Source: Planctomycetota bacterium (GTDB lineage: Bacteria > Planctomycetota > UBA8742 > UBA2392). From it: a stretch of 64,000 nucleotides of DNA. The stretch lies in the NCBI GenBank assembly GCA_019636215.1, contig JAHBXZ010000003.1:285284-349283 (forward strand), read 5' to 3'. A model generated the notes under the pieces. The model saw only the letters and a program-made list of their open reading frames with translations. It searched no databases and was not told where the DNA came from. A program made the position numbers and the translations under genes. How positions within the stretch are numbered: the first letter of the stretch is position 1; the number at the start of each line of letters is the position of its first letter. Below, one piece after another: positions 40,517 through 55,697 of this stretch.

Positions 40517-42991
40517 TTACCTGGCGCGGTCTTCGGCCTTCTTCAGCCAGACGCGGATGCCGGCGCGCACGTCCTCATAGTGCGGGTCGCGGGCCAGGGA
40601 TTTTTCAAACCAGTCGGCGGCCTCGCGGTACTTCTCGCGCAGGAACGCCAGCCGGCCCTGCAGGTACGCGGTTTCAAACGAATGTTCGTTCAGGTTGTGG
40701 CAGGTGCGCACGGCCGTGCTTGCGGCATCCAGGTCGCCGGCGTCCAGCGCAAGCCGGGCAACCCTGGCCACCTTGCGGAACTCGGCCAGGTCCGATGCCA
40801 CGCCCAGACGCGGATCACGGGCCATGTCAAAATCCGCCAGGTGCTGCATGCGCAGTGCGCCCTCGGGCCCGGCCGCCAGCATGCGGCGCACATCCACGCG
40901 GATGTACTTGCCAAAAGTGTGAGGCCCGGCGCTGACCCACATTTCGCCGCGCGTGACGTTGGCGATCACACTGTGGCTGCAGATGCCGGCGTCAATCGCG
41001 TTGCGGTTGCCAAGGCCAAGCGGCTTGTCGCCGATGCCCCTTTCGTCGCGCAGGATGTCCAGAGTCAGCTTGGCGTTGAAGGTCCTATAGCCCCGGCCGG
41101 TCAGTTCTTCCAGGCGCGCCCACCGGTAGGTGGTTGTTGCTCCCTCCACCTGTTTGCGGTTCTCGGTGTCGTTGGCAAATGGCTCGGTCAGGAAGTGGTT
41201 GGTCTGCAGTATCAGCCCGGGCTTGGCGGCCTCGCGCAGGGCGCTGCGGGTGGGCGACTTTTCAATCACCACCGCGCGGCCATCCACGCGGCTGGCGACC
41301 AGGTAGCTGTCCGAAACAAACACCTGCGCGTCGCGCAGAATCGCGTGGGCTTCGTCAATCGTGCGGGCGCTCTCCAGTACGCGGCGCACCAGCATGCTGA
41401 CGGGCGTGCCGATGCGGCCAAAGCCGGTGTCGTCGGTGCGCGCGGCGTTCAAGTGAATGTACAGGCCCTCGGCATTCATGCCGGTTACGGCACCGGCCAT
41501 GCCCGCCCAGGCCACGTGCACGTACGGGATGCCGTCTTCGGGCCACACGTACAGCACAGCCTTGTCCTCGTCGAACACCGGCCCGGCCTCAAAGTCAAAG
41601 TTGCGGCCGATGATCATGTCGCCGGCAAAGGTGGCTTTGTCCCAGGCGGCAAAGGCGGTGCAGCCCGCAAGTTCGCGGCCGCTGACCAGCGGGCTGTCGA
41701 TGAACATGTGGCTGATGTCGTGGACCGCGTGATAGTTGAGAATGCGGTGGTACAGCGGCACGTCATCCGGAAAGTGATTGATGCTGCCCTCGGCCAGGCC
41801 CAGCACTTCAAGTTTCTCGGCATCGGTCACGTACTCGGGAAGCCGGCGGTTGTTCACGCCGACCAGTTGCTTGACGAACCACAGGCTGGCGGCGTTGGGC
41901 AGGAATTCGCGTGCGGTTTTCAGCAGGTACTGTTCCTGCTTCTCGACAAGGTCCTGCCCCAGCTTTGCGTTGGCATAGCCGCGCTGCCACGGGTTGCCGA
42001 CCAGCCCGAACTCGTGCACGTTGTCGCGCGTGCGGCGCCAGTTCTTGCCCAGTCGGCGCGCATCGCCGCGGTCGATGACCTCGGTTTGCGCCAGGCTTCG
42101 GTCACCCGAATAGGTCGGCGGCTCGGCGATGCAGAAGTTCTTCACGTACAGGGACAGACCCGCCAGCATCGCAATCACCACAGCGGCAAAGAACATGGCT
42201 GTGCGCGTGACTGCGCCAATGGGCCAGGCCACGCCGGCCGGTTCCTCGTTCTTGCGCAGCCGGGAAAGGGCCGCGGCCATGCGGTCCTGTGTTTCGGCCT
42301 TCAGGCGCGCGACCGCAAGCTCGCCTTCCACACCGGCAGTCGGCACCGGCGGCAACACCTGCATCACAAGATCGGGCGGGTTGACGGCCGCGCCGCCCTT
42401 GCGCAGGCAGGCCCCGGTGCCGTGCAGCACGACGGGCACGATCGGCACCTTGGCCTCGGCGGCCAGCAGAAACGCGCCGTTTCGGAAACGCCGCATGCGG
42501 CCGTCGGGGCTGCGCGAGCCCTCCGGGAACACAACCACAGAAACGCCCCTGGACAGCCACTCCAGCGCGGTTTCAAAGCCGCGGGGGCGGTCGGGGTCGC
42601 CCTCTTCGGCGTCGTCCAGCACGATGTGCCGGGCCAGTTTGTTCAGCTCGCCCATCAGGGGAATGCGCGCGGCCCAGCCTTTGACAAACCAGCGGGCATT
42701 GATGGGCAGCAGCAGCGCCATCAGGATGTCCAGCATCGACTGGTGATTGACCACAACCACGCAGGGTTGGGGAAACGCCCTGGCGCGCACGTTGATCAGG
42801 CGCTTGCGGCCAAACGGGTACAGACGGAAGAACCACTTCACGATGCGCTTCTGGCCCGCGTAAAAGGCGTCGCCGCGGTGCTTGCTTGCAAAGCGGTCCC
42901 ACAGCCAGTACGGAACCTCCAGGATGAACAAGAAAACGACAAGCTGGGTCCACAGAAGGCCGAAAGCCGCAGCCGTGCGCAGGCCGTTCAT
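40517..42991 (-). CDS. PlsC-type acyltransferase fused to a C45-type autoproteolytic hydrolase
   Basis: The protein has 824 residues from the ATG at 42991. An N-terminal membrane helix leads into a 1-acylglycerol-phosphate acyltransferase domain with NHQSMLD (82-88, the HxxxxD catalytic motif) and FPEGSRS (155-161). A second membrane helix (about 265-283) is followed by a domain whose motif AGCTAFAAWDKATFAG (Cys444) and GRNFDFE match C45 acyl-CoA:6-APA acyltransferase-like NTN hydrolases, which self-cleave to expose the Cys nucleophile. The C-terminal 60 residues resemble TPR helices. The domain order places the second catalytic domain outside the cytoplasm. The frame is open to a TTG at 43090, but that leaves little room for control of the divergent ACP gene. 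Confidence 0.83.
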   Translation of the reverse strand: MNGLRTAAAFGLLWTQLVVFLFILEVPYWLWDRFASKHRGDAFYAGQKRIVKWFFRLYPFGRKRLINVRARAFPQPCVVVVNHQSMLDILMALLLPINARWFVKGWAARIPLMGELNKLARHIVLDDAEEGDPDRPRGFETALEWLSRGVSVVVFPEGSRSPDGRMRRFRNGAFLLAAEAKVPIVPVVLHGTGACLRKGGAAVNPPDLVMQVLPPVPTAGVEGELAVARLKAETQDRMAAALSRLRKNEEPAGVAWPIGAVTRTAMFFAAVVIAMLAGLSLYVKNFCIAEPPTYSGDRSLAQTEVIDRGDARRLGKNWRRTRDNVHEFGLVGNPWQRGYANAKLGQDLVEKQEQYLLKTAREFLPNAASLWFVKQLVGVNNRRLPEYVTDAEKLEVLGLAEGSINHFPDDVPLYHRILNYHAVHDISHMFIDSPLVSGRELAGCTAFAAWDKATFAGDMIIGRNFDFEAGPVFDEDKAVLYVWPEDGIPYVHVAWAGMAGAVTGMNAEGLYIHLNAARTDDTGFGRIGTPVSMLVRRVLESARTIDEAHAILRDAQVFVSDSYLVASRVDGRAVVIEKSPTRSALREAAKPGLILQTNHFLTEPFANDTENRKQVEGATTTYRWARLEELTGRGYRTFNAKLTLDILRDERGIGDKPLGLGNRNAIDAGICSHSVIANVTRGEMWVSAGPHTFGKYIRVDVRRMLAAGPEGALRMQHLADFDMARDPRLGVASDLAEFRKVARVARLALDAGDLDAASTAVRTCHNLNEHSFETAYLQGRLAFLREKYREAADWFEKSLARDPHYEDVRAGIRVWLKKAEDRAR

Positions 42992-43151
42992 GACGGCGTT
43001 TCCGGGCCTGGGGTAAGTGTAGTCATCCCCTGAAATGGCAGCTTCGGGCTCTGTCAACGCGGCTCCTAAGGTCTTGCAGTCCGGGCACAATGCGCGAGAA
43101 TGGACACCATACCGGGGCCAGCGCCGGTTTCCACGGCTTCACGGATTGCCC

Positions 43152-43397
43152 ATGGACACCCTGGACACAAGCCTGAAGGACAGCGTCAACAAACTGGTCG
43201 CCACAGAGTTTGAGCTTGAGCCGGCCTCCGTAACGCCGGAAGCCGACCTGTACAAGGATCTCGGGCTCGACAGCCTTGACGCCATTGACCTTGTGGTCGC
43301 CCTGGAACGCAAGTTCGGCTTCAAGGTCGAAGAAGGCGCGGCCAAGCTGATTCGCACGGTGAACCAGCTTTACGAGTTCGTCGCGATGCACCTGTAG
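43152..43397 (+). CDS. acyl carrier protein 1 of the cluster
   Basis: The 81-residue acyl carrier protein has the phosphopantetheine attachment motif LGLDSLDAIDLVV, with Ser41 modified by a holo-ACP synthase. Surrounding acidic helix II residues (LERKFGFKVEEG) are typical for contact with ketosynthases. It diverges from the PlsC-C45 gene and converges on the dehydratase gene. ATG 43152 follows CTTCACGGATTGCCC, with no strong ribosome site. It probably carries the growing or finished chain of the cluster product. Confidence 0.88.
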   Translation: MDTLDTSLKDSVNKLVATEFELEPASVTPEADLYKDLGLDSLDAIDLVVALERKFGFKVEEGAAKLIRTVNQLYEFVAMHL

Positions 43398-43407
43398 GGG
43401 CAAACTG

Positions 43408-43521
43408 CGGTTTTGGGTTGAAGGCTTTGGGTTTTGGGGAAGGACAACGGCAACGACAACTGCCGTTCTCCATGCCCCAACACCTGTGCCCTATGCTGTT
43501 CCCGAAAACCCGAAACCCTAA
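43408..43521. repeat. imperfect GGTTTTGGG-type quasi-palindrome
   Basis: Runs such as GGGTTTTGGGGA near 43430 face CCCGAAAACCCGAAACCC near 43501-43518. It looks like a degraded dispersed repeat between the convergent ACP and dehydratase genes. Confidence 0.4.
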
Positions 43522-43886
43522 TCCGCCGCCTCTACTCTCAGCGTGAATTCGGACACCTGCGTTTCGCTGTCATGGATGCTGGCGCGCACGCGGTGGCGGT
43601 CGCCATCGGCATCCATGGCAATGCGCAGCGCCAGCGCACGGCCCGGGGCCGCCGGGCTGGTGAACTTGGCACGGGTGACTTCGACCAGCCGCTGCGGCTG
43701 CTTCAACAACCGCGAGGCCAGCTCCACGGCCGCGCTGACCTGCACCACCGCAGGCAGCACGGGCGCGCCGGGAAAGTGGCCTTCAAAGAAGAACTCGTCG
43801 CCGGCGAAATGCAACTCGGCCTGCGCTCCGGCATCATCGACAGAGACAGATTGCAGCGCGCGAGCAAGTGTTTCCTGCAGGTTCAT
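43518..43886 (-). CDS. FabZ/ApeI-like hotdog dehydratase with missing acidic residue
   Basis: The 122-residue hotdog-fold protein has the FabZ-type active-site helix FFFEGHFPGAPVLPAVVQV. His37 matches the catalytic histidine of 3-hydroxyacyl-ACP dehydratases. The partner Glu of FabZ would fall at residue 51, which is Ser here. It may dehydrate through His alone, as proposed for some aryl-polyene dehydratases, or act as a thioesterase or chain-binding subunit. Its start overlaps the lipoprotein gene stop by four bases (ATGA), so both are translated together. Confidence 0.78.
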   Translation of the reverse strand: MNLQETLARALQSVSVDDAGAQAELHFAGDEFFFEGHFPGAPVLPAVVQVSAAVELASRLLKQPQRLVEVTRAKFTSPAAPGRALALRIAMDADGDRHRVRASIHDSETQVSEFTLRVEAAD

Positions 43887-44614
43887 TCGCGTAACTCAAA
43901 AGTCTTTTCAGGCCAGGGTTTGTCGCGCACTGTGAACTCGGTGATCTGGATCGTCAGTTTGTAGGCGGGCCCTTTGGGTTGCACTCCACGGTTTCTCAGC
44001 ACGATCACGGAAGGCACCCATGCCGGGCCAAACTCCTTCCATTCGTAGTAGTTCGCGCGATACAGTTCAGCACCGCGCGCCGCACGCACCCAATCCACCC
44101 TTGGATCGGCCCCTACCAGCCTGGCCCGCCGGAAGATGACGTTCTCGCCATGGTTGCGCTTCACCGTCAACTCAGTCCCCGAATTCGTGTACTCCAACCA
44201 TGCCGGGCCGCGCTGTTCCTGCGGTGCAGGGCTGTCCATTCTTTGCAGGAACACTTTCCAGATGTCGGCCGCAATCTGCTCCAGCGTTGGCCGATCAAAC
44301 TCATCAACAGCAAAGGCAACTTCCGGCCCCATGACCCCGCCGTCCACGATGTCAAACAGCTTGATGCCCTGTTCCGTCATGCCCTGCAAGCGAAACCGGC
44401 CCGGCTGCTGCACAATTAGGTATCCAACCAGAGTTCGCGTAACCGGCCCGAAGTCCAGCGTCACCGTCTGCACCGCCTTGAACTGCTCCGGCCAGCGCGA
44501 ATCGTAAGCCGCAACAGCCTCTTCAACGGTCAACCTGGGCGTGGGCGCGGGGTCCAGCCGCTTGTAGGGGTCCGTCTCGGCGCAGGATGACAGCCACAGG
44601 AGACAGGCCAGCAT
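43883..44614 (-). CDS. LolA/DUF3261-like lipoprotein
   Basis: The 243-residue product starts with a signal peptide and lipobox (MLACLLWLSSC, with Cys11 as the lipidated residue). The mature part alternates beta strands as in LolA-like folds (FKAVQTVTLDFGPVTRTLVGYLIVQQPGRFRLQGMTEQGIKLFDI), which carry hydrophobic cargo between membranes. Genes of this type sit next to MMPL exporters in aryl polyene clusters. It would help deliver an acylated product to the outer membrane. A 245-base palindromic element (44642-44886) lies just upstream and separates it from the exporter gene. The frame upstream of the ATG runs through that element and is not coding. Confidence 0.75.
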   Translation of the reverse strand: MLACLLWLSSCAETDPYKRLDPAPTPRLTVEEAVAAYDSRWPEQFKAVQTVTLDFGPVTRTLVGYLIVQQPGRFRLQGMTEQGIKLFDIVDGGVMGPEVAFAVDEFDRPTLEQIAADIWKVFLQRMDSPAPQEQRGPAWLEYTNSGTELTVKRNHGENVIFRRARLVGADPRVDWVRAARGAELYRANYYEWKEFGPAWVPSVIVLRNRGVQPKGPAYKLTIQITEFTVRDKPWPEKTFELRE

Positions 44615-44641
44615 CAGGGCTGCCCGCCCGTATGGCAGTAC

Positions 44642-44886
44642 CGCGCGGAGCGCGGCCACAACGTTAGCCCCCGGCAAGCGCCCACGGAGTGGGCGTGCAG
44701 CCGGGGGTTTGGGGCCAATAGAACCCTGAGGCGCACAGTGCCGACACAAGACCAGGCGGTCCATGCCGCCGGCCTGTGCCGGCGCTCCGCGCCTCTGCGA
44801 GTGTGATGCACGAGTACCCCCAGCGTCTTGACTGCCTGCGGCAGTCTCGAAGCCGGGGGCTAACGTTGTCCCGGCGCTCCGCGCCG
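44642..44886. repeat. 245-bp element with about 33-bp inverted ends
   Basis: The core arms 44658-44675 and 44852-44869 are perfectly complementary over 18 bases (ACAACGTTAGCCCCCGGC). The match extends outwards through GCGCTCCGCGC with small gaps. A third GCCGGGGG copy and a CGCCCAC/GTGGGCG hairpin lie inside. It contains no open frame of use and separates two cluster genes. Confidence 0.75.
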
Positions 44887-44919
44887 CACGACCTGACAAC
44901 TCATATGGCATTACTTCCG

Positions 44920-47373
44920 TCACGCGGCCCGCCTTCCGCCAAGTTCCAGCAGCGTCGGTACTACAAACAGCGTGAGCCCCAGCGAACTCGCGATGCCGAA
45001 CAGTGTTGTGATACCCACGCTGAACAATGCCGGGTGGCTTGCAAGGCTCATCGCGCCAAAGCCCGCCAGGTTCACCAGCGCCGCCAGCAGCACGCCCGTG
45101 CCCGCCACGCGCAGGCGTTTTGCGGCCTGCGCCGTGTCGCCGCATTCGCGCCAGGTCTGCACGAAGAATACGCCGTAATCAATGCCAAGCCCGGCGATGA
45201 ACACCGTAACAAGCGTGTTGATGATGTTGAACTCAATCCCCAGTGCCCCCATCGCGCCCAGCGTCCACAGCAGCGAGCCCAGCACCGGCACCAGCGCGAT
45301 CAACGACTCGCGCACGCGCCGGAAGGTCAGCCACACCAGACCCACCACCAGCGCCAGGGAAAGCCCGCCCATCAGCGCCAGGTCACGCTGGATCAGCACG
45401 ATCATGCGCGAGACAAACGCGGCCTTGTTCACCACCAGCGCCGACGGCACACCCGCGCGCAGAGTGCCAAGCTGGTCGTCCGCAAGCTGCGCCGTGGTGC
45501 CCACCCATAGGCGCCCGTCGCGCTCCTGCACAAAGTTTGCCATCAGCGACCATACCGGCCGTTTGCGCAATGACTCTGCATCCAGAAGCTCAGGGTCGGC
45601 CTTTGCACGCATGGCCTCAAAGAACGCGGCAAAGCGCTTCTCGACAACGCCTTCGGCAAAACGCACTTCGCCGCCGTCAGGCCGAGTTGCCCTGGCCTCG
45701 ACCATCGCCCTTTTGATTTCGGCAATGCGCGCATCATTGAAAAACGCGCGCCAGCGGCCAAGGTTCTCTCGCTGGGTCTGGCGGGCAGGAATCACCCAGG
45801 CCGCGCTTTCATAGCGCGCCCCTGCTGCATGCAGTGCCTGCGCGGCAAGGTCGTTCTCGCGCAGCGCGGACTCCAGGTTTTCGCCGCCGGTTACCACCAG
45901 CGTGCGGCGCAGGCTGTCAGTGCCAAACGCCTGCTGCACGCGGGTTTCGGCGGCACGGGTTCGCCCCGATTTGCCGTCAAGGTTCGTCACGTCGCCGTCA
46001 AAGGCCACACGCGGAACAAGCAGCGCCGCCCCAGCGGTGACCAGCGCCGCAACCCCCAGCAGCACCCAGCGCAGCCGGGCGCGCGCAGATTCCGCCGCAC
46101 CCAGTGCCTTGCCAAGCACGGATTCGGACTTCGGCATCGGCCCGGCCTTGCGCAGCATCTGCGGCCCTGCCAGCAAGGAAAACGCCAGCGCCGCTGCCAT
46201 GCCGACAATGCCCATCTCACAAAGCTGGTGCAGGCCGTCAAAGCTGCTCAGGCGCAGTGTAGCCACGGCGACAATCGTGGTGAGCACGGCCATCGAAGAC
46301 GGCAGCGCAACGTGTGCCAGTGCCAGCCGCGCGCGCTGGGTGCGGTCTCCTTCTGTGCCTGCAAAACCGGCGGAAAGGTGAATCGCGCAATCGAGGCTGA
46401 TTGCCATCAGCACCCCGGCAAAGCCGGCCGAAATCGCCGAAATCTCGCCCCGCGTCCAGGCCTGCACGCCCATCGCCACCGCAAAGCCGAACCCGGCACT
46501 CAGTGCCGCCAACAGCATCGGGGTTGCCGACCGGAACGCGACCAGAAACAGCAGCAGCACGCCAATCACGCTGGCAGCCACAGTCAGGTGCAGGTCACTG
46601 CGCAGCACAGTGGCGTTGTCCACGCTGCTGGCATGGGCGCCAATCACGTGGGCCGCGGACTTCCCCGGCAGTTCGGCCAAGGCGGCGCGGACATCGGCCA
46701 GAAAATCCAGCCCGCGGCCGGTGTCGCTGGCAGGAAAATCCGCTTCCACCAGAAGCACGGCCATGCGCTGGTCTTTGCTGAACAGCCGGCCGCCGACCAG
46801 GCTGCCATCGAAACCAGAGTTGAGCCGCTCGAATCGCCGCAGCACCAGTTCGTTCAGGCCGAACGGATCAGCCCGAAAGCTGTCCGCAACACTGATGCCC
46901 TCACTGCCGGCCTGTCGATCAATGTGCTGTTGCAGGCGACGCTGGAATTCCTCCCGGGTCAGGCGCTGCTCTGTGGCTTGCTTCATGGGCTCGTCAAACA
47001 GCAGTGGTGCCGTGCCCAGGTAGTGCGTGGCGATGTCGTCCTGGGCCTCCTTGCTCACGCGAGCCACGATCGACGTCACGCCCGAAACTCCCGCCAACCG
47101 GGATTCAGCCTCATCCACGTCGCGGGCCAGGGCATCCGCAGTGTCGTTCTCAAGGGCCACAACCATGCGCTCAAGCCCGTGAAAGCGCCCCAGCGCCAGC
47201 CTGGTCTCCACCACAGTGGGGTCTTCTTTGGGCAGCAGGCCGAGAACGTCCTCTGTGAACCGCAGGCGTAATGCGCCCGAGGCGGCAAGGCCGAGAACAA
47301 CCAGCAATCCCGTAACCAGCCAAAGCGGCCGGCGTGCAAAGAACTCAAACCATCGGACAACTAGCGCGCCCAT
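44920..47373 (-). CDS. MMPL/RND-family exporter of the cluster
   Basis: The 817-residue inner-membrane protein has the two-fold RND layout: helix 1 (about 18-35), a periplasmic loop of about 220 residues, five helices (about 255-405), then a second helix, another loop and five more helices. Conserved parts are the GFAVAMGVQAWTRG and LMAISLDCAIHL segment (Asp in helix 4) and VFIAGLGIDYGVFF in the second half. It belongs with predicted exporters of aryl polyene and lipid clusters (COG4258-like). The ATG at 47373 lies seven bases after the FAD oxidoreductase stop, so the genes are cotranscribed. The expected substrate is the product of the neighbouring ketosynthases. Confidence 0.83.
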   Translation of the reverse strand: MGALVVRWFEFFARRPLWLVTGLLVVLGLAASGALRLRFTEDVLGLLPKEDPTVVETRLALGRFHGLERMVVALENDTADALARDVDEAESRLAGVSGVTSIVARVSKEAQDDIATHYLGTAPLLFDEPMKQATEQRLTREEFQRRLQQHIDRQAGSEGISVADSFRADPFGLNELVLRRFERLNSGFDGSLVGGRLFSKDQRMAVLLVEADFPASDTGRGLDFLADVRAALAELPGKSAAHVIGAHASSVDNATVLRSDLHLTVAASVIGVLLLFLVAFRSATPMLLAALSAGFGFAVAMGVQAWTRGEISAISAGFAGVLMAISLDCAIHLSAGFAGTEGDRTQRARLALAHVALPSSMAVLTTIVAVATLRLSSFDGLHQLCEMGIVGMAAALAFSLLAGPQMLRKAGPMPKSESVLGKALGAAESARARLRWVLLGVAALVTAGAALLVPRVAFDGDVTNLDGKSGRTRAAETRVQQAFGTDSLRRTLVVTGGENLESALRENDLAAQALHAAGARYESAAWVIPARQTQRENLGRWRAFFNDARIAEIKRAMVEARATRPDGGEVRFAEGVVEKRFAAFFEAMRAKADPELLDAESLRKRPVWSLMANFVQERDGRLWVGTTAQLADDQLGTLRAGVPSALVVNKAAFVSRMIVLIQRDLALMGGLSLALVVGLVWLTFRRVRESLIALVPVLGSLLWTLGAMGALGIEFNIINTLVTVFIAGLGIDYGVFFVQTWRECGDTAQAAKRLRVAGTGVLLAALVNLAGFGAMSLASHPALFSVGITTLFGIASSLGLTLFVVPTLLELGGRRAA

Positions 47374-47380: not shown

Positions 47381-48916
47381 TTAAGGGGAGGGCCCCGGCG
47401 CAGCGCAAGGCAAGAACGCATCAGTTTCGCGGCGCACTTCACGAATCAGGCTGTCGTTGCCCAGCGCGGTTGCGGCGACGGCAAAGCCCGTAACGCAGGC
47501 GCCAAGCACGCCCGGCGTGCCCGTGCCCGCCCCGGTCACGTACAGGCCGTGATAGCGGGTCTTGCGGCGCACACCGTTGACGCCCTGCGAGTCAACCGAC
47601 GGCTCGAGCCCGTACAGGCCGCCGCCGGGGTAGTTTACATAGTCGCGGATCGTCAACGGTGTGGAGGCTTCCACCACGGTCAGGCGCCCGCGCAGGGCAG
47701 GCAAGCGCTGTTCGACCATGGCCATCACGTTGGCAACCAGGCGTTGCTTGAGCGCCATATACTCGGCATCGCGGCGGGCGGTGCGTGTGGCCTGCCAGGG
47801 CGCGAACCACTCGGCACGAGCCGAACTCATTGCAGTGAACGTCTGTACGCCATCGGCCGGAGGCGCGAAGTTTACAATGGCGTCAGCGGGCCCCTTCGTT
47901 GACGGGTCGTAGAAACAGTCCGGGTCGTCGTCGCGCAGCAGGTAGTGATTTCTCCCGGCGTACTCGCCCAGTTCCCCCTGCACCACGCCGTACACACAGA
48001 ACAGCCCCACGCACTCCGGCGCGAGGGCCAGGCGTTGCCGCAGCACGCTGCGCCATGCGTCCGAAGGCATCAAATTCAGGGCCCGACGCGGGTGCAGTGC
48101 CAGGATGACCTCCGGCGCGCGCAGCACTTCGCCGCTGGCCAGTTCGACACCGGCGGCGCGGTCGCCCTCCACCAGCACGCGCACCACGGCGGCGCGGGTG
48201 CGCAGATCGCCTCCTAGTTCGCGCAGTCGCGCCACCAGCCGCGAGGTGATCGCGTCGCCGCCGCCGACCACGTAATGCGGGCCCTCCGTGGCGCTGCCGA
48301 TCACCGCCGCATGTATCGCCAGTGGCGCGCGGGCCGACGGCGCGCCGTACAGGCTGCTTTGCGCCAGCAGCAGCGACCGCAGGCGCGGAGAAACGCCAAG
48401 TTCACCCAACAGGCCCGCCACCGTCACTTCGTGCGGCGTACGGTCGTAGGCGCCGGGCGCATCAGCATTCAGCGAATGCCAGGTCAGGGAACTTTCCACG
48501 GCACGCATTCGCGCCACGAAGGCAGCAATCGCGGCGGCCTCGCCGGGGCAGGCCTGTCGCAGGTTCCGCGCCAGCGCATCCCATCCCACAGGCACGGCAA
48601 ACTCGCCCGATGGCAGAGAAATGCGGTCAAAGCAGTTGGCGTCCAGCGGCAAGGCCGGGACGCTCACGCCCAGGTACCGAAACAGCCGCCACATCGTCTG
48701 GCCGGGCTTGAGCGAACCAACGTAGTGCACTCCCACGTCAAAGCGCACCTTGCCGCCCGCGGGCCCGCGGCGCTGGAACATCTGCATGCAGCCGCCGGGC
48801 ACCACGTGCGATTCAAGCACCTGCACACGCCAGCCGTGGCGCGCCAGCACAATCGCCGCGCTGAGACCGCTGATGCCGCTGCCGACAATGATGGTGTACG
48901 GTGCCATGCCGGACAT
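47381..48916 (-). CDS. CrtI/RetSat-like FAD-dependent oxidoreductase
   Basis: The 511-residue protein has a Rossmann FAD motif at the start (IIVGSGISGLSAAIVLARHGW; GxGxxG at 12-17) and a C-terminal FAD site (GLYVTGAGTGTPGVLGACVTGFAVA). It also has the PGGC region of phytoene-desaturase-like enzymes. Such enzymes desaturate, saturate or isomerise polyene chains. Members are found in ladderane and flexirubin/aryl polyene-type clusters. It follows the KS gene after 14 bases. An alternative ATG nine bases in (48907) is also good. The enzyme would adjust double bonds in the chain; substrate unknown. Confidence 0.83.
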   Translation of the reverse strand: MSGMAPYTIIVGSGISGLSAAIVLARHGWRVQVLESHVVPGGCMQMFQRRGPAGGKVRFDVGVHYVGSLKPGQTMWRLFRYLGVSVPALPLDANCFDRISLPSGEFAVPVGWDALARNLRQACPGEAAAIAAFVARMRAVESSLTWHSLNADAPGAYDRTPHEVTVAGLLGELGVSPRLRSLLLAQSSLYGAPSARAPLAIHAAVIGSATEGPHYVVGGGDAITSRLVARLRELGGDLRTRAAVVRVLVEGDRAAGVELASGEVLRAPEVILALHPRRALNLMPSDAWRSVLRQRLALAPECVGLFCVYGVVQGELGEYAGRNHYLLRDDDPDCFYDPSTKGPADAIVNFAPPADGVQTFTAMSSARAEWFAPWQATRTARRDAEYMALKQRLVANVMAMVEQRLPALRGRLTVVEASTPLTIRDYVNYPGGGLYGLEPSVDSQGVNGVRRKTRYHGLYVTGAGTGTPGVLGACVTGFAVAATALGNDSLIREVRRETDAFLPCAAPGPSP

Positions 48917-48930: not shown

Positions 48931-50151
48931 TCAGTCAACGGCAGACAGGATCAACGCGGCATTGGTGCCGCCAAAGCCGAAGCTGTTGACCAGTACGTTG
49001 CGCAGCCTGCGCTCGAGCATGGATGCAACAACGTGGATGCGCGGGGCGCCGTCTTCCTGGGCCTCAAAGTTGATGTTCGGCGCGATGAACCCGCCGCGCA
49101 GCATCAGGGCCGAGTACAGGATTTCACTGGCGCCGCTCATCCAGCATTCGTGGCCGGTCATGGATTTGGTGCTGCTGACAGGCGTGGCTTCGCCGAACAC
49201 TTCGCGAATCGCCCCGGCCTCTTTGGCGTCGCCGACCGGTGTGCTGGTGGCGTGGGCGTTGATGTAGTCAACGTTGCCGGGTGCGCATTGGGCCTGCTGC
49301 AGTGCCGCCTGCATGGCGCGTTTGGCGCCGTCGCCGCTGGGCAGGGTCAAGTGCTCGCCATCGCTGGAAAACCCGTAGCCGCGTACCTCAACCAGCGGCC
49401 TTCCGCCGCGGGCCTTTAGGTGGCTTTCGCTTTCCAGGATCAATGCGGCCGCCCCGCCGCTTGGCACCAGGCCGTCGCGGGCGCGGTCAAAGGGGCGGCT
49501 GGCCTGCTGCGGCGCGTCCATGCGTGTGCTGAACGTTCCCAGCGCGTCAAAGCTGGCCATGGATTCCCAGTTGATTTCCTGCATGCCGCCGGTGATCACG
49601 ACATCCTGCATGCCGGCCCTGATCAGCATGAACCCCTGGCCCACGGCGTGGGCGCCGCTGGCGCAGGCTGCCGCCAGTGTCCAGTTCGCGCCCTGGCAGC
49701 CGATCAGCGCGTTCAGGTTCATGCTGGCCGTGCTGTTCATGGCCTGGAAAATGTAGCCGCTGCCAAGCTGCTGGGTGGTTTTGTCGCGGCGCACGGCATC
49801 GGCAATCTCGACGTTGGCGGCGCTGGTGCTGTCGTTGCCGATGATCAGCCCGGTGCGCGGGTTGCGAAGGCTTGACGGGTCAAGACCCGCATGGGCAATC
49901 GCCTCCAGCACGGAAAAGGCCTGCCACTGGGCGCTTTCATGCATGGACTTGCGGGCCTTGCGGTCCAGCCGCGCCTTGGGCTCAAAGCCGGTGATCGCGC
50001 CGGTCAGGGGTGAACGAAAGCCAAGTTCCATCCTGCGCGGGTCAACGACAACGCCGCTTCGTCCAGCGCGCAACGAAGCTTCCATCTCGGCCAGGGACTT
50101 GCCGAGAACCGAAATGGCGGAAAGGCCGGTGATGAAGACGCGGTCAGGCAT
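48931..50151 (-). CDS. 3-oxoacyl-ACP synthase (FabB/F type), intact
   Basis: The 406-residue ketosynthase has the Cys-His-His triad: Cys163 (AACASGAHA), His300 (NAHATSTPVGD), Lys329 and His334 (SSTKSMTGHECW). The TGHECWMSGASE variant of the usual TGHSLGAAG resembles FabB-like proteins of aryl polyene clusters. It extends the ACP-bound chain by two carbons. The start at 50151 lies only eight bases from the left inverted repeat of the inserted four-helix gene, and no ribosome site is visible, so insertion may have altered its leader. Confidence 0.87.
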   Translation of the reverse strand: MPDRVFITGLSAISVLGKSLAEMEASLRAGRSGVVVDPRRMELGFRSPLTGAITGFEPKARLDRKARKSMHESAQWQAFSVLEAIAHAGLDPSSLRNPRTGLIIGNDSTSAANVEIADAVRRDKTTQQLGSGYIFQAMNSTASMNLNALIGCQGANWTLAAACASGAHAVGQGFMLIRAGMQDVVITGGMQEINWESMASFDALGTFSTRMDAPQQASRPFDRARDGLVPSGGAAALILESESHLKARGGRPLVEVRGYGFSSDGEHLTLPSGDGAKRAMQAALQQAQCAPGNVDYINAHATSTPVGDAKEAGAIREVFGEATPVSSTKSMTGHECWMSGASEILYSALMLRGGFIAPNINFEAQEDGAPRIHVVASMLERRLRNVLVNSFGFGGTNAALILSAVD

Positions 50152-50158: not shown

Positions 50159-50643
50159 GAGTCGGCAGTCTGAAGTCCGCAGTCGGCAGCAACTGCAACT
50201 ACAACTACCGCGAGTCCTTTCTCTCGAGAGAGTCCATGAGGCCGTTCAAGATTCGTCCCACTTCTTGCGCCTGAGCGAGCAATCCCGCATGCGATTCTGC
50301 GGGCATGAACTGCAGATCCAACGCCGCATACAGGTGGCTTTCAATCTCCATCACCGACCCATTGGCGATGCGAAGAAAACGAAGAAAGTCAGCGTCGCTG
50401 CCCCTTCCGGAGCCTTCCGCAATGTTCGCCATGACGGACACGGCTGCGCTGCGAATTTGGCTGGTAAGGCCGAAGCGCTCTTCGGTCGGCCAGGATCGGC
50501 TCGCAAGGTACACCTGCTTGTTCAACAATCGCGCCTTCTGCCAGGCAATCAGGTCAAAGTACCGGCGTGCTCCCATCTTCGTTCCTCAGCCTGTGACAAC
50601 TTTCCGCAGTTGCTCCCGACTGCCGACTCCAGACTGCCGACTT
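50159..50643. mobile_element. 485-bp unit with 38-bp inverted ends carrying a four-helix-bundle gene
   Basis: The left arm 50159-50196 and the reverse complement of 50606-50643 match at 34 of 38 positions. The arms contain AGTCGGCAGTCTG and GCAACTGC. The unit lies exactly between the fabG stop (50650) and the KS start (50151) and carries one complete gene with its own ribosome site. I see no target-site duplication or transposase. Confidence 0.65.
50205..50576 (-). CDS. four-helix-bundle protein (23S rRNA intervening-sequence type)
   Basis: The 123-residue protein matches the S23/IVP family: YFDLIAWQKARLLNKQVYLASRSWP, EERFGLTSQIRSAAVSVMANIAEGSGR and FLRFLRIANGSVMEIESHL. These form a pentameric four-helix bundle related to the Avd accessory protein of diversity-generating retroelements. 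Members are often encoded in insertions of 23S rRNA genes or scattered as single genes; function is unknown. GAGGA lies seven bases before the ATG. It sits inside inverted repeats and interrupts the fabG-KS gene order, in the same direction as both. I see no reverse transcriptase nearby. Confidence 0.87.
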   Translation of the reverse strand: MGARRYFDLIAWQKARLLNKQVYLASRSWPTEERFGLTSQIRSAAVSVMANIAEGSGRGSDADFLRFLRIANGSVMEIESHLYAALDLQFMPAESHAGLLAQAQEVGRILNGLMDSLERKDSR

Positions 50644-50647
50644 GCCC

Positions 50648-51373
50648 CTACATGTACATCCCGCCATTGACGCCAAGCACCTGGCCGGTGATGTAGCCTG
50701 CCTCCGGCCCGGCCAGAAAGCTCACTGCGGCGGCAATCTCGTCGGCTGTGCCGAACCGGCCCAGCGGTACGTGCTTTACCAGTTCTTCCTTGGGCAGGTC
50801 CTTGACCATGTCGGTTTCCACGAACCCCGGCGCCACCACGTTTACCGTCACCTTGCGGCTGGCGATCTCCTTGGCCAGGGCCTTGCAGGCGCCGATCAGC
50901 CCCGCCTTGCTGGCGGAGTAATTCACCTGGCCGGCGTTTCCGGCCTCGCCGCTGACACTGGAAATCGCAACGATGCGGCCCTGGCGTTTGCGCAGCATGG
51001 GCCGAAGGCAGGGCTTTACCACATTGAAGAAGCCGCCCAGGTTGGTCTCAATCACTTCCTTCCACTCGTTGCCTGACATCATGGCCATCAGGCCGTCGCG
51101 GGTGATACCCGCGTTGCTGACGACAATCTCCGGGCCGCCTTCTTCTTCAATCATGGCCTCCAGCACATGGGCGCACTGTTCGCCATCGGCCACATTGAAC
51201 TGAAGGGCCCGGGCCGTACCGCCCGCCTGGGTGATTTCTGCCACCAGGGATTCGGCGGCGTCTTTGTTGCCCGCATAGTTGACCCAGATGCGGCAGCCGT
51301 CACGGGCCAGGCGGGCCGCAATGCCCCGCCCGATGCCCCGCGAGGCGCCGGTTACCAGCGCAATTCGTGTCAA
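50648..51373 (-). CDS. fabG: 3-oxoacyl-ACP reductase
   Basis: This 241-residue short-chain dehydrogenase reduces 3-ketoacyl-ACP with NADPH. It has TGASRGIG (8-15), NAG (87-89), Asn111, Ser139, Tyr152 and Lys156 (YSASK), and a glycine-rich C-terminus ending VLGVNGGMYM. Start is TTG at 51373 with GGGAG six bases upstream; ATG codons further in would remove the cofactor motif. It is the first gene of the minus-strand arm and diverges from ACP 2. Its association with two KS genes and an exporter suggests service to the cluster rather than housekeeping fatty-acid synthesis. Confidence 0.9.
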   Translation of the reverse strand: MTRIALVTGASRGIGRGIAARLARDGCRIWVNYAGNKDAAESLVAEITQAGGTARALQFNVADGEQCAHVLEAMIEEEGGPEIVVSNAGITRDGLMAMMSGNEWKEVIETNLGGFFNVVKPCLRPMLRKRQGRIVAISSVSGEAGNAGQVNYSASKAGLIGACKALAKEIASRKVTVNVVAPGFVETDMVKDLPKEELVKHVPLGRFGTADEIAAAVSFLAGPEAGYITGQVLGVNGGMYM

Positions 51374-51392
51374 ACTGGACTCCCAGGGTCGT

Positions 51393-51420
51393 TTGCGTCG
51401 TTTCGAGAACAGCGTATATT
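51393..51420 (+). promoter_or_regulatory. candidate promoter of the plus-strand ACP-KS operon
   Basis: TTGCGT (51393-51398) and TATATT (51415-51420) are separated by 16 bases. The -10 matches 5 of 6 positions. Transcription would begin about 55-60 bases before the TTG start of ACP 2. Confidence 0.4.
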
Positions 51421-51483
51421 AGCCGCTCAGCCCGTGGCCGACAGGCTGCGGTTTTTGGGGCAGCAACCCGCAGGATCAGAACT

Positions 51484-51741
51484 TTGCAACCACTGGTAGA
51501 CGAACTCAAGCACCTCATTATCCGGCACCTCAACCTCGAGGATGTAGACCCCCAAAGTGTCAGCCCCGACGAGCCCCTGTTCGGCGGCGGGCTTGGCCTG
51601 GACAGTGTCGATGCGCTGGAGCTGGTCATGTTGATGGAAACTAACTACGGCGCCAAGATTGAATCCTCAGATTCCGGTCGCAAGGCCTTTGCCAGCCTCA
51701 AAACACTGGCGGATTTTGTGCAGGCCCACCGCAAGAAGTAG
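51484..51741 (+). CDS. acyl carrier protein 2 of the cluster
   Basis: The 85-residue protein begins with TTG at 51484 (MQPLVDELKHLIIRHL), with AGGA about ten bases upstream. The attachment motif is LGLDSVDALELVMLM, with Ser41. Helices II and III are acidic and keep the ACP pattern (ETNYGAKIESSD, LKTLADFVQAH). It lies six bases before a KS gene. Together with ACP 1 it gives the cluster two carrier proteins, as in aryl polyene systems. Confidence 0.88.
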   Translation: MQPLVDELKHLIIRHLNLEDVDPQSVSPDEPLFGGGLGLDSVDALELVMLMETNYGAKIESSDSGRKAFASLKTLADFVQAHRKK

Positions 51742-51747
51742 CCCCCA

Positions 51748-53010
51748 ATGACTGCGTCCCATCCTTCGCGCGCAGTGGCAATCACCGGTCTGGGCGTGAT
51801 CAGTGCCGTGGGCCGCGGTGTGGCAAGCATGGATGCGGCGCTGGCAGCTGGGCGGGACGGCCTTGGGCCTCTGAGCCTGTGGGACACGGACCTTGCCGGC
51901 GAGTTCCCCGTGGGGCAGTACCGCGGCGACCTTGACGCGGATCTTGCCGAAGTCGGCCTTGCACCCACGCGCCGCAGCCTGGCACGCATGTCGCGGTCCG
52001 ACAAACTGGCGCTGGTGGCCTGTGCAGAGGCCTGCGCCCACGCGGGGCTTTCGCCCGCAGCCCTGAACCGCCTGGGTGCTGGGGCCTTTGTGGGACAATC
52101 CGTGTGCGGGACACTGGCCAGCGAGGCCCAGTACCAGCGGGCCCGCGCCGGCCACACATCGCGCCGGGGCATGGGCGCCATGTTTACGCATGAAGGCGCC
52201 AACACGCAGGACCAGCTGGCCCGGCACTTTCATCTGGGCGGCCCCACGCTTGGTTTCATGACCGCATGCAGCAGCGGTGCCAACGCCATCGGCCTGGCGG
52301 CGGCCCGCGTGGCTGCGGGCCAGTGTGAGGTCATGCTGGCAGGCGGCGCGGACAGCCTTTCGCGCATTGCCGTGTACGGGTTTCATTCGTTGCAGGTAGT
52401 AAGCCCCGAAGGCCCGCGCCCCTTTGACGCGAACCGCAAGGGTATGAGTGTGGGCGAAGGCGCAGGCTTTGTCGTGCTGGAAGCGCTGGCCCACGCGCGC
52501 CAACGCGGGGCAACGCCGCTGGCCTTGCTGACGGGTTATGGCCACAGTTGCGACGCCCACCACCTGACGGCGCCCCACCCGCAAGGGGCCGGCGCGATTG
52601 CCGCCATGCGGGGGGCACTGGCCATGGCCGGCCTGGAACCACGCGACATCGGGTACATCAACGCCCACGGCACGGCGACGCTTGACAACGACCGCACCGA
52701 GGCCCTGGCGATTGCATCGGTTTTCGCGCAGGCACCGGTGCCCGTCAGCAGCGTCAAGCGCTTCTTCGGGCACACGCTGGCCGCCGCCGGCGCGATTGAG
52801 GCCGTGGTGTGCGCGCGCGCCCTGCAAACAGAGACCCTGCCGCAGAATCTGGGCCTGCAAACGCCATTGCCCGAGGCCGCGCTGGACCTGGTGCGTTCGC
52901 CGCGGCACGCGCCCGGCCTGCGGCACGTGCTTTCCAACAGTTTCGGCTTTGGCGGCAACAATGCCGCGCTGCTGTTCAGTGCCACGGAGGCCGCATGGAA
53001 CCCAAGCTGA
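51748..53010 (+). CDS. 3-oxoacyl-ACP synthase (FabF type), intact
   Basis: The 420-residue ketosynthase has the catalytic residues Cys174 (TACSSGANA), His307 (NAHGTATLDND), Lys337 and His342 (SSVKRFFGHTLAAAG). The SVKRFFGH version of the usual STKxxxGH motif keeps Lys and His. It lies between ACP 2 and the GxxExxY-like gene and overlaps the latter by 16 bases. The next KS-like gene lacks all catalytic residues, so this enzyme may be the active half of a KS/CLF pair that sets chain length. Confidence 0.9.
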   Translation: MTASHPSRAVAITGLGVISAVGRGVASMDAALAAGRDGLGPLSLWDTDLAGEFPVGQYRGDLDADLAEVGLAPTRRSLARMSRSDKLALVACAEACAHAGLSPAALNRLGAGAFVGQSVCGTLASEAQYQRARAGHTSRRGMGAMFTHEGANTQDQLARHFHLGGPTLGFMTACSSGANAIGLAAARVAAGQCEVMLAGGADSLSRIAVYGFHSLQVVSPEGPRPFDANRKGMSVGEGAGFVVLEALAHARQRGATPLALLTGYGHSCDAHHLTAPHPQGAGAIAAMRGALAMAGLEPRDIGYINAHGTATLDNDRTEALAIASVFAQAPVPVSSVKRFFGHTLAAAGAIEAVVCARALQTETLPQNLGLQTPLPEAALDLVRSPRHAPGLRHVLSNSFGFGGNNAALLFSATEAAWNPS

Positions 53011-53405
53011 CAAACCGCATTCAGGCCCTGTACGACTGCATCCTGGCAGGTGCGGAGCGCGTCCAGCAGGCCCTGGGCGCGGGCATGCCGCTGGCGGCTT
53101 ATCGTGCCTGCCTGAAGCTGGAACTGGACACTGTGCCGCTGTCGGTGGCCTGCGACGTGCCGGTGCCGCTGCTGTATCGCGACGTGGAAGTTGAGAACGC
53201 GATTGTCGTGCCCATGGTGTGCGACGGGCTGGTCGTGGTGGCGTTTGAACAGGAACCATCGATGTCGCCAGCCATGGACGCGCGCATGCACGCGCTGCTG
53301 CGCGCCACCGGCCTGCCGATGGGCGTGATTGCGAACTTCGGCATACCGGCCATCCGCGCCGGGCTGCGCCGCATTGCCAACCCCAACCCCAGGATGGAAG
53401 GCTGA
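52995..53405 (+). CDS. degenerate GxxExxY-family protein
   Basis: The 136-residue protein aligns by eye with GxxExxY (PDDEXK_3-like) proteins: ALGAGMPLAAYRACLKLEL corresponds to the helix with the name motif, VPLLYRDVEVENAIVVPMV to the central strands, and LLRATGLPMGVIANFGIPAIRAGLRRI to the conserved C-terminal stretch. The motif Glu is Leu33 (G-M-P-L-A-A-Y), the following catalytic Asp is replaced in IVVPMV, and the ExK pair is lost in VVAFEQ. A nuclease role is unlikely. It overlaps the KS gene by 16 bases and the next KS-like gene by one base, so translation of all three is coupled. Confidence 0.7.
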   Translation: MEPKLTNRIQALYDCILAGAERVQQALGAGMPLAAYRACLKLELDTVPLSVACDVPVPLLYRDVEVENAIVVPMVCDGLVVVAFEQEPSMSPAMDARMHALLRATGLPMGVIANFGIPAIRAGLRRIANPNPRMEG

Positions 53406-54520
53406 TGCCCGTAGTTATCACCGGCCTTGGGGTGGTCAGCAGCATCGGCACCGGCGCCGCTGAGTTCCGGGCTGCGCTTTTGCAGGGCCGCTGCGGTTGC
53501 GCGCTGCGCGAGTTTCCGCGCCTGGCCGGCAACAGTGTGCATGCCCCGGCCTATGTTTCTGTTGCGGCCGAGCCGCACGGCCTGATTGAACCGCGCAAGC
53601 TTCGCCGCATGTTCCGCATTGTCCGCATGGCGGCGGTCTGCGCCCGCCAGGCACTGCAGATGGCGGGTATTGACCCGTCAACAGTCCCTCCCCACCGCAT
53701 CGGCATTGTGTTCGGCACGGCATTTGGCGCGCTGGAAGTTACGCAGAAGTTCATCGACAGCTGGATCGACAACGGCCAGCGCCACGCAAGCCCCCTGAAC
53801 TTCATGAACAGCGTGCACGGCATCCTGGCCAGCCAGATCGCGCTGGATATCCATGCCACCGGCCTGAACCTCACGATCAGCCAGCGCGACATCAGCTTCG
53901 AGGCCGCACTGGCCCATGGCGCCGCCGCCCTGGAGGCCGGGCAGGTGGATGTCTGCCTGGTCGGCGGGGCCGATGAACTTACGCCATTGCTGCACGAGGT
54001 TGCCGCCCGGTCCCTTTATGCATCGCTGGATGCGGCCGACGCGGCAGGCCTGGACCCCCTGGCGCGGCGCGGCACCACCGTTCCGGGCGACGGCGCGGCG
54101 GTGTTTGTGCTGCAACGCCAGGGGCGCGCCCTGGCACACCTTGCCGGCGTCAGGCTTGGGCGCCACGACCATGGCGGGCCGGACCTTGCCCGCGAATTGC
54201 TGCAGAACGAGGCCGCCGCGGGCGTGGACCTGGTGACCAACAACCGCGACGGCCACCTGCGGTCGGCCAGGGTCCACCAGAGGCGCGAGGCCGTCGTGGG
54301 CCCCGGCGTGAGCCACCGCGGCAACTTCGGAACCTGGCCCACGGCCGGCGCGTTACAGTTTGCCGCCAACGCGCTGATGCTGGCGCATGGTGAATACTAC
54401 GCGCCTCTGGCGGCCGGAAAGCCGCAGCCCATGCGCACGGCGCCGCGCGCAATTCTGCACGACGCCGCCAGCAGCAGCGGCGTGCATGCGGCCTATGTGT
54501 TGACAGCCAATGAACAATGA
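53405..54520 (+). CDS. ketosynthase-like protein without catalytic residues (chain-length-factor type)
   Basis: The 371-residue protein has a thiolase fold (MPVVITGLGVVSSIGTGAAEF and GIVFGTAFGALE), but the cysteine motif reads TISQRDIS (157-164) with no Cys, and neither His motif is present. The C-terminal half is shortened and diverged (SHRGNFGTWPTAGALQFA replaces the GHxxGAAG region). Chain-length factors replace the active Cys, often by Gln, and pair with an active KS. It is translated with the preceding genes and is the likely partner of the KS at 51748. An independent activity is improbable. Confidence 0.78.
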   Translation: MPVVITGLGVVSSIGTGAAEFRAALLQGRCGCALREFPRLAGNSVHAPAYVSVAAEPHGLIEPRKLRRMFRIVRMAAVCARQALQMAGIDPSTVPPHRIGIVFGTAFGALEVTQKFIDSWIDNGQRHASPLNFMNSVHGILASQIALDIHATGLNLTISQRDISFEAALAHGAAALEAGQVDVCLVGGADELTPLLHEVAARSLYASLDAADAAGLDPLARRGTTVPGDGAAVFVLQRQGRALAHLAGVRLGRHDHGGPDLARELLQNEAAAGVDLVTNNRDGHLRSARVHQRREAVVGPGVSHRGNFGTWPTAGALQFAANALMLAHGEYYAPLAAGKPQPMRTAPRAILHDAASSSGVHAAYVLTANEQ

Positions 54521-54595
54521 ACAATGAACAAGGCCCAATGAGCGATGTTCGCTACCCGGCCTTCCATTGTTCATTGCTCATTGTTCATTGTTCAT
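54508..54595. repeat. tandem TGAACAA heptamers facing each other
   Basis: Three copies on the left (54508-54532) face complementary copies on the right (54564-54595) with GGC/GCC between. The unit overlaps the KS-like stop codon and borders the UbiA start, so the stop and the next leader lie inside it. Confidence 0.65.
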
Positions 54596-54599
54596 GCCT

Positions 54600-55697
54600 A
54601 TGTCCGCCGGGTCGCCATTAGCTGTCGCCAAGACCTACGCCAGCTTCGTGAAGCTGTCGCACACCGTGTTTGCGCTGCCATTCGCACTGGCGGGGATGGC
54701 TGCGGCCTATGCCGTGCCCACGGCGTTTGTGTACCCCCGCCACGTGCCGGGCATGGGGCCTGGGCTGGAAAGCTTCGACCAGCACATGCAGTTTTCGTGG
54801 CTGCTGCTGGCGCTGGTCCTTGGCTGCATGGTGGGCGCGCGAACGTTCGCGATGGCGCTCAACCGCATCATCGACCGCCATATCGATGCCCTGAACCCTC
54901 GCACTGCTGCGCGCGAACTGCCCGCCGGGCGCATCAGCGCGGGCCAGGCTTGGACGCTGGCGCTTGCCGCAGCGCTGCTTTACTTCGGGGCCTGCTTCGC
55001 CATCAGCCCGGTCGTACTCTGGCTCAGCCCGATCCCGATCGCGCTGATGGCCGTCTATCCTTACATGAAGCGGGTTTCGGTGCTTTGCCACCTAGTGCTT
55101 GGGGCCAGCCTGGGCCTTGCACCCGTTGGCGCGTGGGTCGCCGTGCGGGCCATGAGCAGTAACAGTTTCAGCGACGGCGACCTGTTCTTTGCCGGCGCGG
55201 GCTGGCGCGCAGACCTGTTCGGCATGGCTCCCCTGTCGTGGGGCCTGGGCTGGGATGCCGTCGGCGAACTTGCCCCCTGGGTGCTGGGCGCGGGCGTGGC
55301 CCTGTGGGTGGCCGGGTTTGACATCATCTACGCCCTGCAAGACGACGAGTTCGACCGCGCCAACAAGCTGCACTCGATTCCCGCCGCCGTCGGTCGCAAG
55401 GCCGCACTGTGGATCAGCCGGGTCACGCACCTGGGTGCCGCCGTCTGCTTTTTCGGTTTCGTATGGCTGCTGACTCATCCCGCGCCCGTGGGCGGCATGG
55501 ACACGCGCCAGTACACCGAAGTCGCCAACTGGGTCTGGGCCGCGCCCTGCCTGATGGTGGTGGGGCTGGCGTACCAGCACTCGCTTGTAAAGCCGGGTGA
55601 CCTGTCACGCGTCAACATGGCCTTCTTCACCGTGAACGGGGTCATCAGTGTCGCGTTCGGTGTAGTGTTTCTGGCCAGTTGGTGGAGGGGTTGGTAG
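54600..55697 (+). CDS. UbiA-family prenyltransferase (4-hydroxybenzoate/MqnP-like)
   Basis: The 365-residue protein has eight to nine membrane segments. The first Asp-rich motif reads NRIIDRHIDALNPRTAARELP, and the second DDEFDRANKLHSIPAAVG. These bind Mg-prenyl diphosphate. Such enzymes attach polyprenyl chains to aromatic acids or to menaquinone precursors. A central insertion of about 30 residues (VRAMSSNSFSDGDLFFAGAGWRADLFG) is unusual. Start ATG 54600 (or 54594) lies just after the repeat; an in-frame TTG at 54567 is inside it. It may belong to quinone synthesis and only border the cluster. Confidence 0.8.
   Translation: MSAGSPLAVAKTYASFVKLSHTVFALPFALAGMAAAYAVPTAFVYPRHVPGMGPGLESFDQHMQFSWLLLALVLGCMVGARTFAMALNRIIDRHIDALNPRTAARELPAGRISAGQAWTLALAAALLYFGACFAISPVVLWLSPIPIALMAVYPYMKRVSVLCHLVLGASLGLAPVGAWVAVRAMSSNSFSDGDLFFAGAGWRADLFGMAPLSWGLGWDAVGELAPWVLGAGVALWVAGFDIIYALQDDEFDRANKLHSIPAAVGRKAALWISRVTHLGAAVCFFGFVWLLTHPAPVGGMDTRQYTEVANWVWAAPCLMVVGLAYQHSLVKPGDLSRVNMAFFTVNGVISVAFGVVFLASWWRGW

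Follow-up and report, generated by a model that had tools for sequence, protein, structure and literature searches.

Aryl polyene clusters and a related planctomycete locus

Aryl polyene (APE) clusters, represented by apeA to apeR of Escherichia coli CFT073 and by relatives in Acinetobacter and Xenorhabdus, carry acyl carrier proteins (ACPs) of the ApeE and ApeF types, a ketosynthase (KS) with a catalytically dead partner, FabG, an ApeI-type dehydratase, a PlsC acyltransferase, an MMPL exporter, and a lipoprotein of LolA/LolB fold. These elements, including an ApeO-compatible KS, are shared by the locus described here, which occupies 40.5 to 55.7 kb of a 64,000-nucleotide stretch (the window) of contig C23 (GenBank JAHBXZ010000003.1) in the 3.99-Mb draft genome of a Planctomycetota bacterium. 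Unlike APE clusters, the locus has a FabB-type KS in place of ApeR and an additional FAD enzyme, C45 domain, and GxxExxY protein, while a second KS/partner pair, a radical SAM enzyme, and a deacetylase-LolA pair lie elsewhere in the genome; the annotated E. coli cluster contains neither radical SAM nor C45 enzymes. According to PMC8253772, an E. coli apeR deletion strain still showed the primary lipid, so ApeR may not be a strict requirement.

Clusters proposed for ladderane lipids in anammox planctomycetes (kuste2802-2805 and kuste3603-3608) also place a KS beside a dead KS, together with an ACP, a dehydratase, a CrtI-like enzyme, and radical SAM genes. The anammox genome G103 showed two gene orders (ACP, dehydratase, KS, dead KS, CrtI-like, radical SAM; and ACP synthase, radical SAM, KS, dead KS), which agree with kuste3603-3608 and kuste2802-2805 as listed in PMC4790861. 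PMC2649909 describes four such anammox clusters and divergent FabF copies that lack the active-site Cys; in a Rhodopirellula copy Asp replaces it, as in the dead partner of the window. Close homologues of kuste3605 and kuste3606 are chains B and C of PDB entries 9S5H and 9S5I, for which we found no paper; this pairing fits KS/dead-KS complexes in planctomycetes. Our comparison covered anammox loci L088 and L089, with the kuste3335-3352 locus outside it, and neither had an MMPL, LolA, or C45 match.

Highly reducing type II polyketide synthases (PKSs) such as that for ishigamide combine a KS-chain length factor (CLF) pair, Iga11-Iga12 for ishigamide, with a ketoreductase and a dehydratase (PMC8358021). 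These systems come from actinomycetes and are not known to include outer-membrane export genes; the locus shares the KS-CLF, ketoreductase, and dehydratase combination, and the structure model of its dead partner matches the ishigamide KS/CLF entries. A search of titles and abstract openings, with most subscription papers outside its range, returned no account of the cluster itself.

We tentatively interpret the region as a planctomycete variant of aryl polyene biosynthesis whose predicted product is an outer-membrane lipid with a polyene-type acyl chain. It likely works like an APE cluster; membership in APE clusters proper is not claimed, because the region has no ApeR-type KS, no ApeH/ApeG match, and no ApeP match. 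The sequences themselves show the enzymes, the catalytic residues they have kept or lost, and their conservation across the family.

Gene content and the KS/dead-KS pair

We called genes in the window and scanned the encoded proteins with Pfam and NCBIfam models. On the minus strand, from 51373 downward, lie genes for FabG (50648 to 51373), a 23S-IVP protein, KS1 (48931 to 50151), a CrtI-like FAD enzyme (47381 to 48916), the MMPL exporter (44920 to 47373), the lipoprotein (43883 to 44659), the hotdog dehydratase (43518 to 43886), and a PlsC-C45 fusion with a C-terminal TPR region (40517 to 42991). The plus strand carries ACP1 (43152 to 43397) within the minus-strand run and then ACP2 (51484 to 51741), KS2 (51775 to 53010), the GxxExxY protein (52995 to 53405), the dead KS-like partner (53405 to 54520), and a UbiA-type prenyltransferase. 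A sequence-only reading of the window had put the divergence point at 51.4 kb, correctly, since the divergent runs start at 51373 (minus strand) and 51484 (plus strand). Every gene on its list (two ACPs, two intact KSs, a dead KS, FabG, the hotdog dehydratase, the CrtI-like enzyme, MMPL, the lipoprotein, and PlsC-C45) was recovered in place; the GxxExxY and 23S-IVP genes had been missed and the prenyltransferase left unlisted.

By BLASTP against CFT073, 8 of the 14 window proteins compared pair with Ape proteins: ACP2 with ApeE (48% identity), ACP1 with ApeF (41%), FabG with ApeQ (50%), KS2 with ApeO (35%), the dehydratase with ApeI (30%), the MMPL exporter with ApeM (22%), PlsC with ApeD (28%), and KS1 with ApeR (32%). 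ACP2 (PF00550) scored 88.3 bits against PRK09184 (cutoff, 70), where E. coli ApeE scores 89.5. ACP1 (PF00550), which carries a DSL serine site, scored 68.4 bits against PRK05350 (cutoff, 65), the best model of ApeF (146.6 bits). By these model scores, the locus has two dedicated ACPs of the ApeE and ApeF types, as expected of an APE cluster, and the likeness to such clusters noticed earlier is borne out. The dehydratase (PF07977) exceeded the cutoff of the ApeI-like model PF22818 (29.6 bits versus 28.5). The best model of the CrtI/CrtD/RetSat-like FAD-dependent oxidoreductase was TIGR02733 (CrtD; 126 bits), followed by TIGR02730 and TIGR02734, all below cutoff.

The fused acyltransferase joins a PlsC domain (PF01553) to a C45 (Ntn-type) acyltransferase/hydrolase domain (PF03417) that scored 182 bits against NF040521 (cutoff, 85). 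Among 12 distinct fused proteins, all have the HX4D motif, the Gly-Cys site, and a hydrophobic segment between the two domains, and 11 have FPEG. The curated score and the Gly-Cys at the cleavage site identify the C45 domain as a predicted autoproteolytic acyltransferase/hydrolase. A stand-alone C45 protein of genome G030 has six Lys/Arg residues before its N-terminal segment and none after it. Among the best 120 of 245 database matches, the fused protein came from a planctomycete wherever the source name gives the organism. Two further proteins (P0044 and P0045) have C45 fused to a polysaccharide deacetylase (PF01522), in keeping with the joint presence of C45 and deacetylase genes in the G030 and G283 clusters described below.

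The exporter (PF03176), whose start we set at an ATG upstream of the first of its hydrophobic segments, scored 114 bits against the HpnN-like model TIGR03480, below cutoff. The lipoprotein, of outer-membrane type, has a lipobox but no Pfam or NCBIfam match, and BLAST pairs it directly with neither ApeN nor ApeL; since the sequence scans failed, its LolA/LolB assignment rests on the fold of its structure model. It is homologous to a lipoprotein of G038 that belongs to the Pfam family of ApeN. An MMPL exporter with predicted LolA/LolB-like partners is thus encoded, with LolA on another contig.

KS1 and KS2 (both PF00109 and PF02801) retain the catalytic Cys-His-His. The best model of KS2, PRK09185, is also that of E. 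coli ApeO (556 bits). In a KS tree of 58 rows, which takes in part of the family rows at hand, KS2 of the family groups with KS2 of G225, G030, G283, and G038 (13 rows, 96/92). Approximately unbiased (AU) tests were run on this 13-row clade; a family-only grouping would be unfair to the FabF and anammox rows. They did not reject a grouping of the clade with ApeO (P = 0.37). Groupings with three FabF-type rows and with two anammox KSs (kuste2804/3605 clade) were rejected (P = 0.00046 and P = 0.0032, respectively). These P values lean low, since the groups were defined once the tree was known. The tree has long branches (ApeC and CLF3 rows), an unusual composition in nine rows, the four anammox rows among them, and a partial E. 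coli FabF row (353 amino acids). With KS2 rejected from the anammox KSs and the FAD enzyme 23% identical to its anammox counterpart, the ladderane-like half of the sequence-only reading was not supported.

The dead partner matches PF00109 without the C-terminal PF02801. In all nine family rows aligned (15 family sequences were at hand), Asp stands at the Cys position and both catalytic His residues are lost. Its structure model keeps the full ketosynthase fold and matches the actinorhodin as well as the ishigamide KS/CLF entries, and plain FabF entries match the fold equally well. An active KS paired with a KS-fold protein that lacks the catalytic triad is the arrangement of a KS-CLF type II PKS, and from the sequences and the model we predict that the two form a heterodimer. 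In G225, from another planctomycete family, KS2 and the dead partner are fused in one 1,014-amino-acid frame (L093:1288-4332) beside ACP2 and a deacetylase.

Between KS2 and its partner lies the degenerate GxxExxY (PDDEXK_3-like) protein, which scored 57.4 bits against TIGR04256 (cutoff, 35). Its gene overlaps that of KS2 by 16 bases and that of the partner by one, so translational coupling is likely. The motif Glu and E-x-K, which we take to be the expected motif residues, are missing from 12 of 12 family copies (two other copies were aligned for comparison). A sequence database search returned eight proteins including the query, a search of limited reach since it missed relatives at 34 to 46%, and a literature search on GxxExxY gave nothing related. 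Our guess is that the protein has a structural role in the KS2/partner complex.

Conservation and putative scattered pathway parts

KS2 was found in all 16 family genomes, with 62 to 80% identity in the 15 relatives, which argues that the gene grouping is beyond chance. At an E value of 1e-68, none of four class members from outside the family had it, and that threshold gave 69 of 392 genomes in a phylum sample: the 16 family genomes and 53 others, 22 of which belong to f46, the family of the anammox genome G103. FabG, ACP2, and KS2 are linked in the loci of all 15 relatives; the partner adjoins KS2 in 14 (one contig ends), and the UbiA-type gene is adjacent in 13. Seven relatives hold everything from PlsC-C45 through the partner in one locus. 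The PlsC-C45 fusion is present in 16 of 16 genomes, as two contig pieces in G005 and at another locus in G006 and G009. KS1 (at least 79% identity) and the FAD enzyme (at least 65%) each occur in 12 of 16, and GxxExxY lies between KS2 and the partner in the same 12.

Planctomycetes of other families carry a related gene set as a single cluster. In G030 and G283 it comprises a GT2 glycosyltransferase, MMPL, PlsC, a methyltransferase, C45, FabG, an LpxL-like acyltransferase, a B12 radical SAM enzyme, KS3 with a dead partner, ACP2, KS2 with its partner, a deacetylase, LolA, and a lipoprotein; G038 and G201 have a shorter version, and the G283 cluster has an AMP-binding ligase beside its KS genes. 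The genome studied here (G000) has the same kinds of parts at three other loci. A KS3/partner pair is on contig C31 (KS3 was found in 15 of 16 family genomes and not in G010). A B12-binding radical SAM enzyme on C1 is 34 to 38% identical by BLASTP to those of G030 and G038, and this type was present in all eight genomes tested, five of them from the family. Elsewhere on C1 a deacetylase gene adjoins LolA, a neighbourhood common to G030, G283, G108, and G014. We infer that these scattered parts still serve the pathway. The statement that the locus has no radical SAM gene therefore holds for the region only: none was found among its scanned genes, unlike in the anammox clusters, and the homologue on C1, of another subtype, corresponds to the in-cluster enzyme of the related planctomycete clusters.

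Two other loci have overlapping content. L151 (G014:C2:100000-118000) has a second B12-type radical SAM gene and, by eye, a C45-like protein about 5 kb from KS3/partner; its radical SAM protein is 26 to 28% identical to anammox ones, compared with 22 to 24% for the C1 enzyme of G000 (two anammox proteins were compared with the latter). L119 (G000:C32:80000-90000) encodes an alpha/beta hydrolase, an AMP-binding enzyme, a GxxExxY protein that keeps E-x-K, an NAD epimerase-like protein, a KS, an ACP, two CrtI-like FAD enzymes, and a FabZ-like protein. Its hydrolase/AMP-binding/epimerase order is OleB/C/D-like, and L119 is perhaps a second fatty-acid-like locus, for polyunsaturated hydrocarbons.

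The 23S-IVP gene (50205 to 50576, minus strand; PF05635, four-helix) belongs to an insert of ~490 bp (50160 to 50642) that separates fabG from KS1; in G001 the gap is 3 bases. The insert ends in 37-nucleotide inverted repeats that are 92% complementary. The gene was found only in G000 among the loci of the 16 family genomes searched, a gene-less copy of the repeat word lies on C32 (L119:6159-6231), and the insertion site in two further genomes (L050 and L053) carries, by eye, different palindromes that also hold no gene. The insert looks like a small mobile stem-loop element and is not part of the pathway. On the other flank of the locus, the UbiA-type prenyltransferase (54648 to 55697, plus strand; PF01040, TIGR01475; menaquinone MqnP-like) is a conserved neighbour, followed by atpD and, two genes further, atpC, as read by eye. 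Positions 37873 to 40442, ahead of the PlsC-C45 gene, encode an ECF sigma factor and a second protein that has no Pfam match (FecR-like by eye), and the pair is also found there in several relatives.

Proposed pathway, alternatives, and implications

The locus would encode a dissociated (type II) aryl-polyene-type line that, with lipid acyltransferases, the MMPL exporter, and the LolA/LolB-fold lipoprotein, delivers a lipid-attached polyene-type acyl chain to the outer membrane. KS2 and its dead partner would elongate the chain as a KS-CLF heterodimer, using malonyl units on ACP2. FabG would reduce each unit, and the ApeI-like dehydratase, probably aided by a second dehydratase, would dehydrate it. 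Double bonds would remain, because no enoyl reductase was recognised among the scanned genes of the region. The variable module, made up of KS1, ACP1, and the FAD enzyme, likely makes or edits the starter, which would be unsaturated but not aromatic. PlsC likely moves the chain onto a lipid inside the cell, and the C45 domain likely acts on the lipid across the membrane; MMPL would then export it, and the lipoprotein and the separately encoded LolA would carry it to the outer membrane. The occurrence of the same gene set as one cluster in G030 and G283 supports this interpretation.

Several observations weigh against an APE-type pathway. ApeH, ApeG, ApeB, ApeJ, ApeK, ApeL, and ApeP have no significant match among the proteins of the region, and the region has no second dehydratase of an ApeI/ApeP pair; the dehydratase that is present retains its His in alignment and has lost the usual acidic partner residue. 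Two of the eight Ape pairings do not discriminate. FabG exceeds the cutoff of PRK05653 (326 bits versus 273), with the flexirubin FlxB model second (311.5 bits, below its cutoff of 340), and is 51% identical to E. coli housekeeping FabG against 50% to ApeQ, so by sequence it cannot tell APE from housekeeping synthesis. KS1 is closer to FabB (41% identity) than to ApeR, has PRK07967 (FabB) as its best model (378 bits, below cutoff), and clusters with E. coli FabB at 100/98; ApeR pairs with another KS of G030 at 100/99. The AU test rejected a clade that joins seven KS1 rows to ApeR and this G030 enzyme (P = 0.0036), and KS1 is by these comparisons a FabB-type enzyme and not an ApeR.

The pair at the centre of the proposal is also imperfect: KS2 is ApeO compatible and its partner is dead, but KS2 scores 320.9 bits against PRK09185, under the cutoff of 407, and the partner has no significant match to ApeC (E = 0.33), so that its status as a CLF rests on position, active-site loss, and fold. 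The AU groups were named after inspection of the tree, which makes the tests post hoc. KS1, the FAD enzyme, and GxxExxY are all missing from 4 of 16 family genomes and hence are not essential to the core; this co-absence is confined to genera g3 and g6, whose two KS2 tree rows group at 93/72, and may be one event. In G001, G003, and G011, the half from MMPL through the lipoprotein and dehydratase to PlsC-C45 is at a separate locus. Every genome of the family is split over several contigs, and the relatives with a name are metagenome-assembled genomes of Planctomycetota. The refutation test set by the sequence-only reading (all KS genes with housekeeping FabF/FabB and no conserved neighbourhood in relatives) gave a divided answer: KS1 falls with FabB, while KS2 is rejected from FabF and its neighbourhood is conserved.

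We consider a true APE pathway, with its aromatic starter and ligase encoded at other genomic loci, unlikely, even though pathway parts are scattered in this family, the related G283 cluster has a ligase beside its KS genes, and all 16 family genomes have one gene of the ammonia-lyase family. That gene is presumably an ordinary HutH, which counts against an aromatic route, as does the FabB-type KS in place of ApeR. The region has no aromatic starter ligase, as the sequence-only reading had stated (no ApeH/ApeG match by Pfam/NCBIfam scans or BLASTP), and a whole-genome search with E. coli ApeH was empty, a weak negative that had no positive control and overlooked an AMP-binding enzyme on C32. 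Unlikely to the same degree, in our view, is a specialised branch of fatty-acid synthesis that forms no polyene and instead provides an outer-membrane lipid with acyl chains that are branched or have non-conjugated double bonds. The FabB-type KS1, the dehydratase without its usual acid, a FabG that passes the housekeeping model, and an exporter that resembles HpnN-type lipid transporters (below cutoff) would fit such a branch. The ApeE/ApeF-type ACPs, the dead partner beside an ApeO-compatible KS, and the lack of a recognised enoyl reductase in the region would not.

A ladderane-like or otherwise radical-cyclised lipid, with a radical SAM enzyme acting from another locus, is the least probable of the alternatives, and we regard it as very unlikely. 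In G030, G038, and G283 a B12 radical SAM gene of this type shares the cluster with homologous KS genes, and the type occurs in all five family genomes tested; anammox clusters also join KS, dead KS, CrtI-like, and radical SAM genes (PMC2649909). Against this, the grouping of KS2 with anammox KSs is rejected, the radical SAM identities to the two anammox enzymes are low, and nothing indicates cyclisation. The planctomycete variant of aryl polyene biosynthesis remains our preferred interpretation. A bolder extension of it, which we hold to be unlikely as a whole, is that several families share a planctomycete class of outer-membrane polyene lipid: two KS/dead-KS pairs would build the chain, a B12 radical SAM enzyme would remodel it, a membrane-spanning PlsC-C45 would acylate two sites, one on either face of the inner membrane, the inactivated, nuclease-like GxxExxY protein would have been recruited to scaffold the KS2/partner complex, and the cluster of one family would have broken into at least four loci with its parts kept.

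Because the pathway appears to be scattered in this family, cluster-based miners may catch only part of it. The anammox route to ladderanes, itself still unsolved, has the same KS/dead-KS layout and can be compared with the locus. With KS2 in 16 of 16 genomes, aryl-polyene-type machinery would belong to the apparent core genome of a planctomycete family, and the locus is a concrete candidate for the source of an unknown planctomycete outer-membrane lipid.

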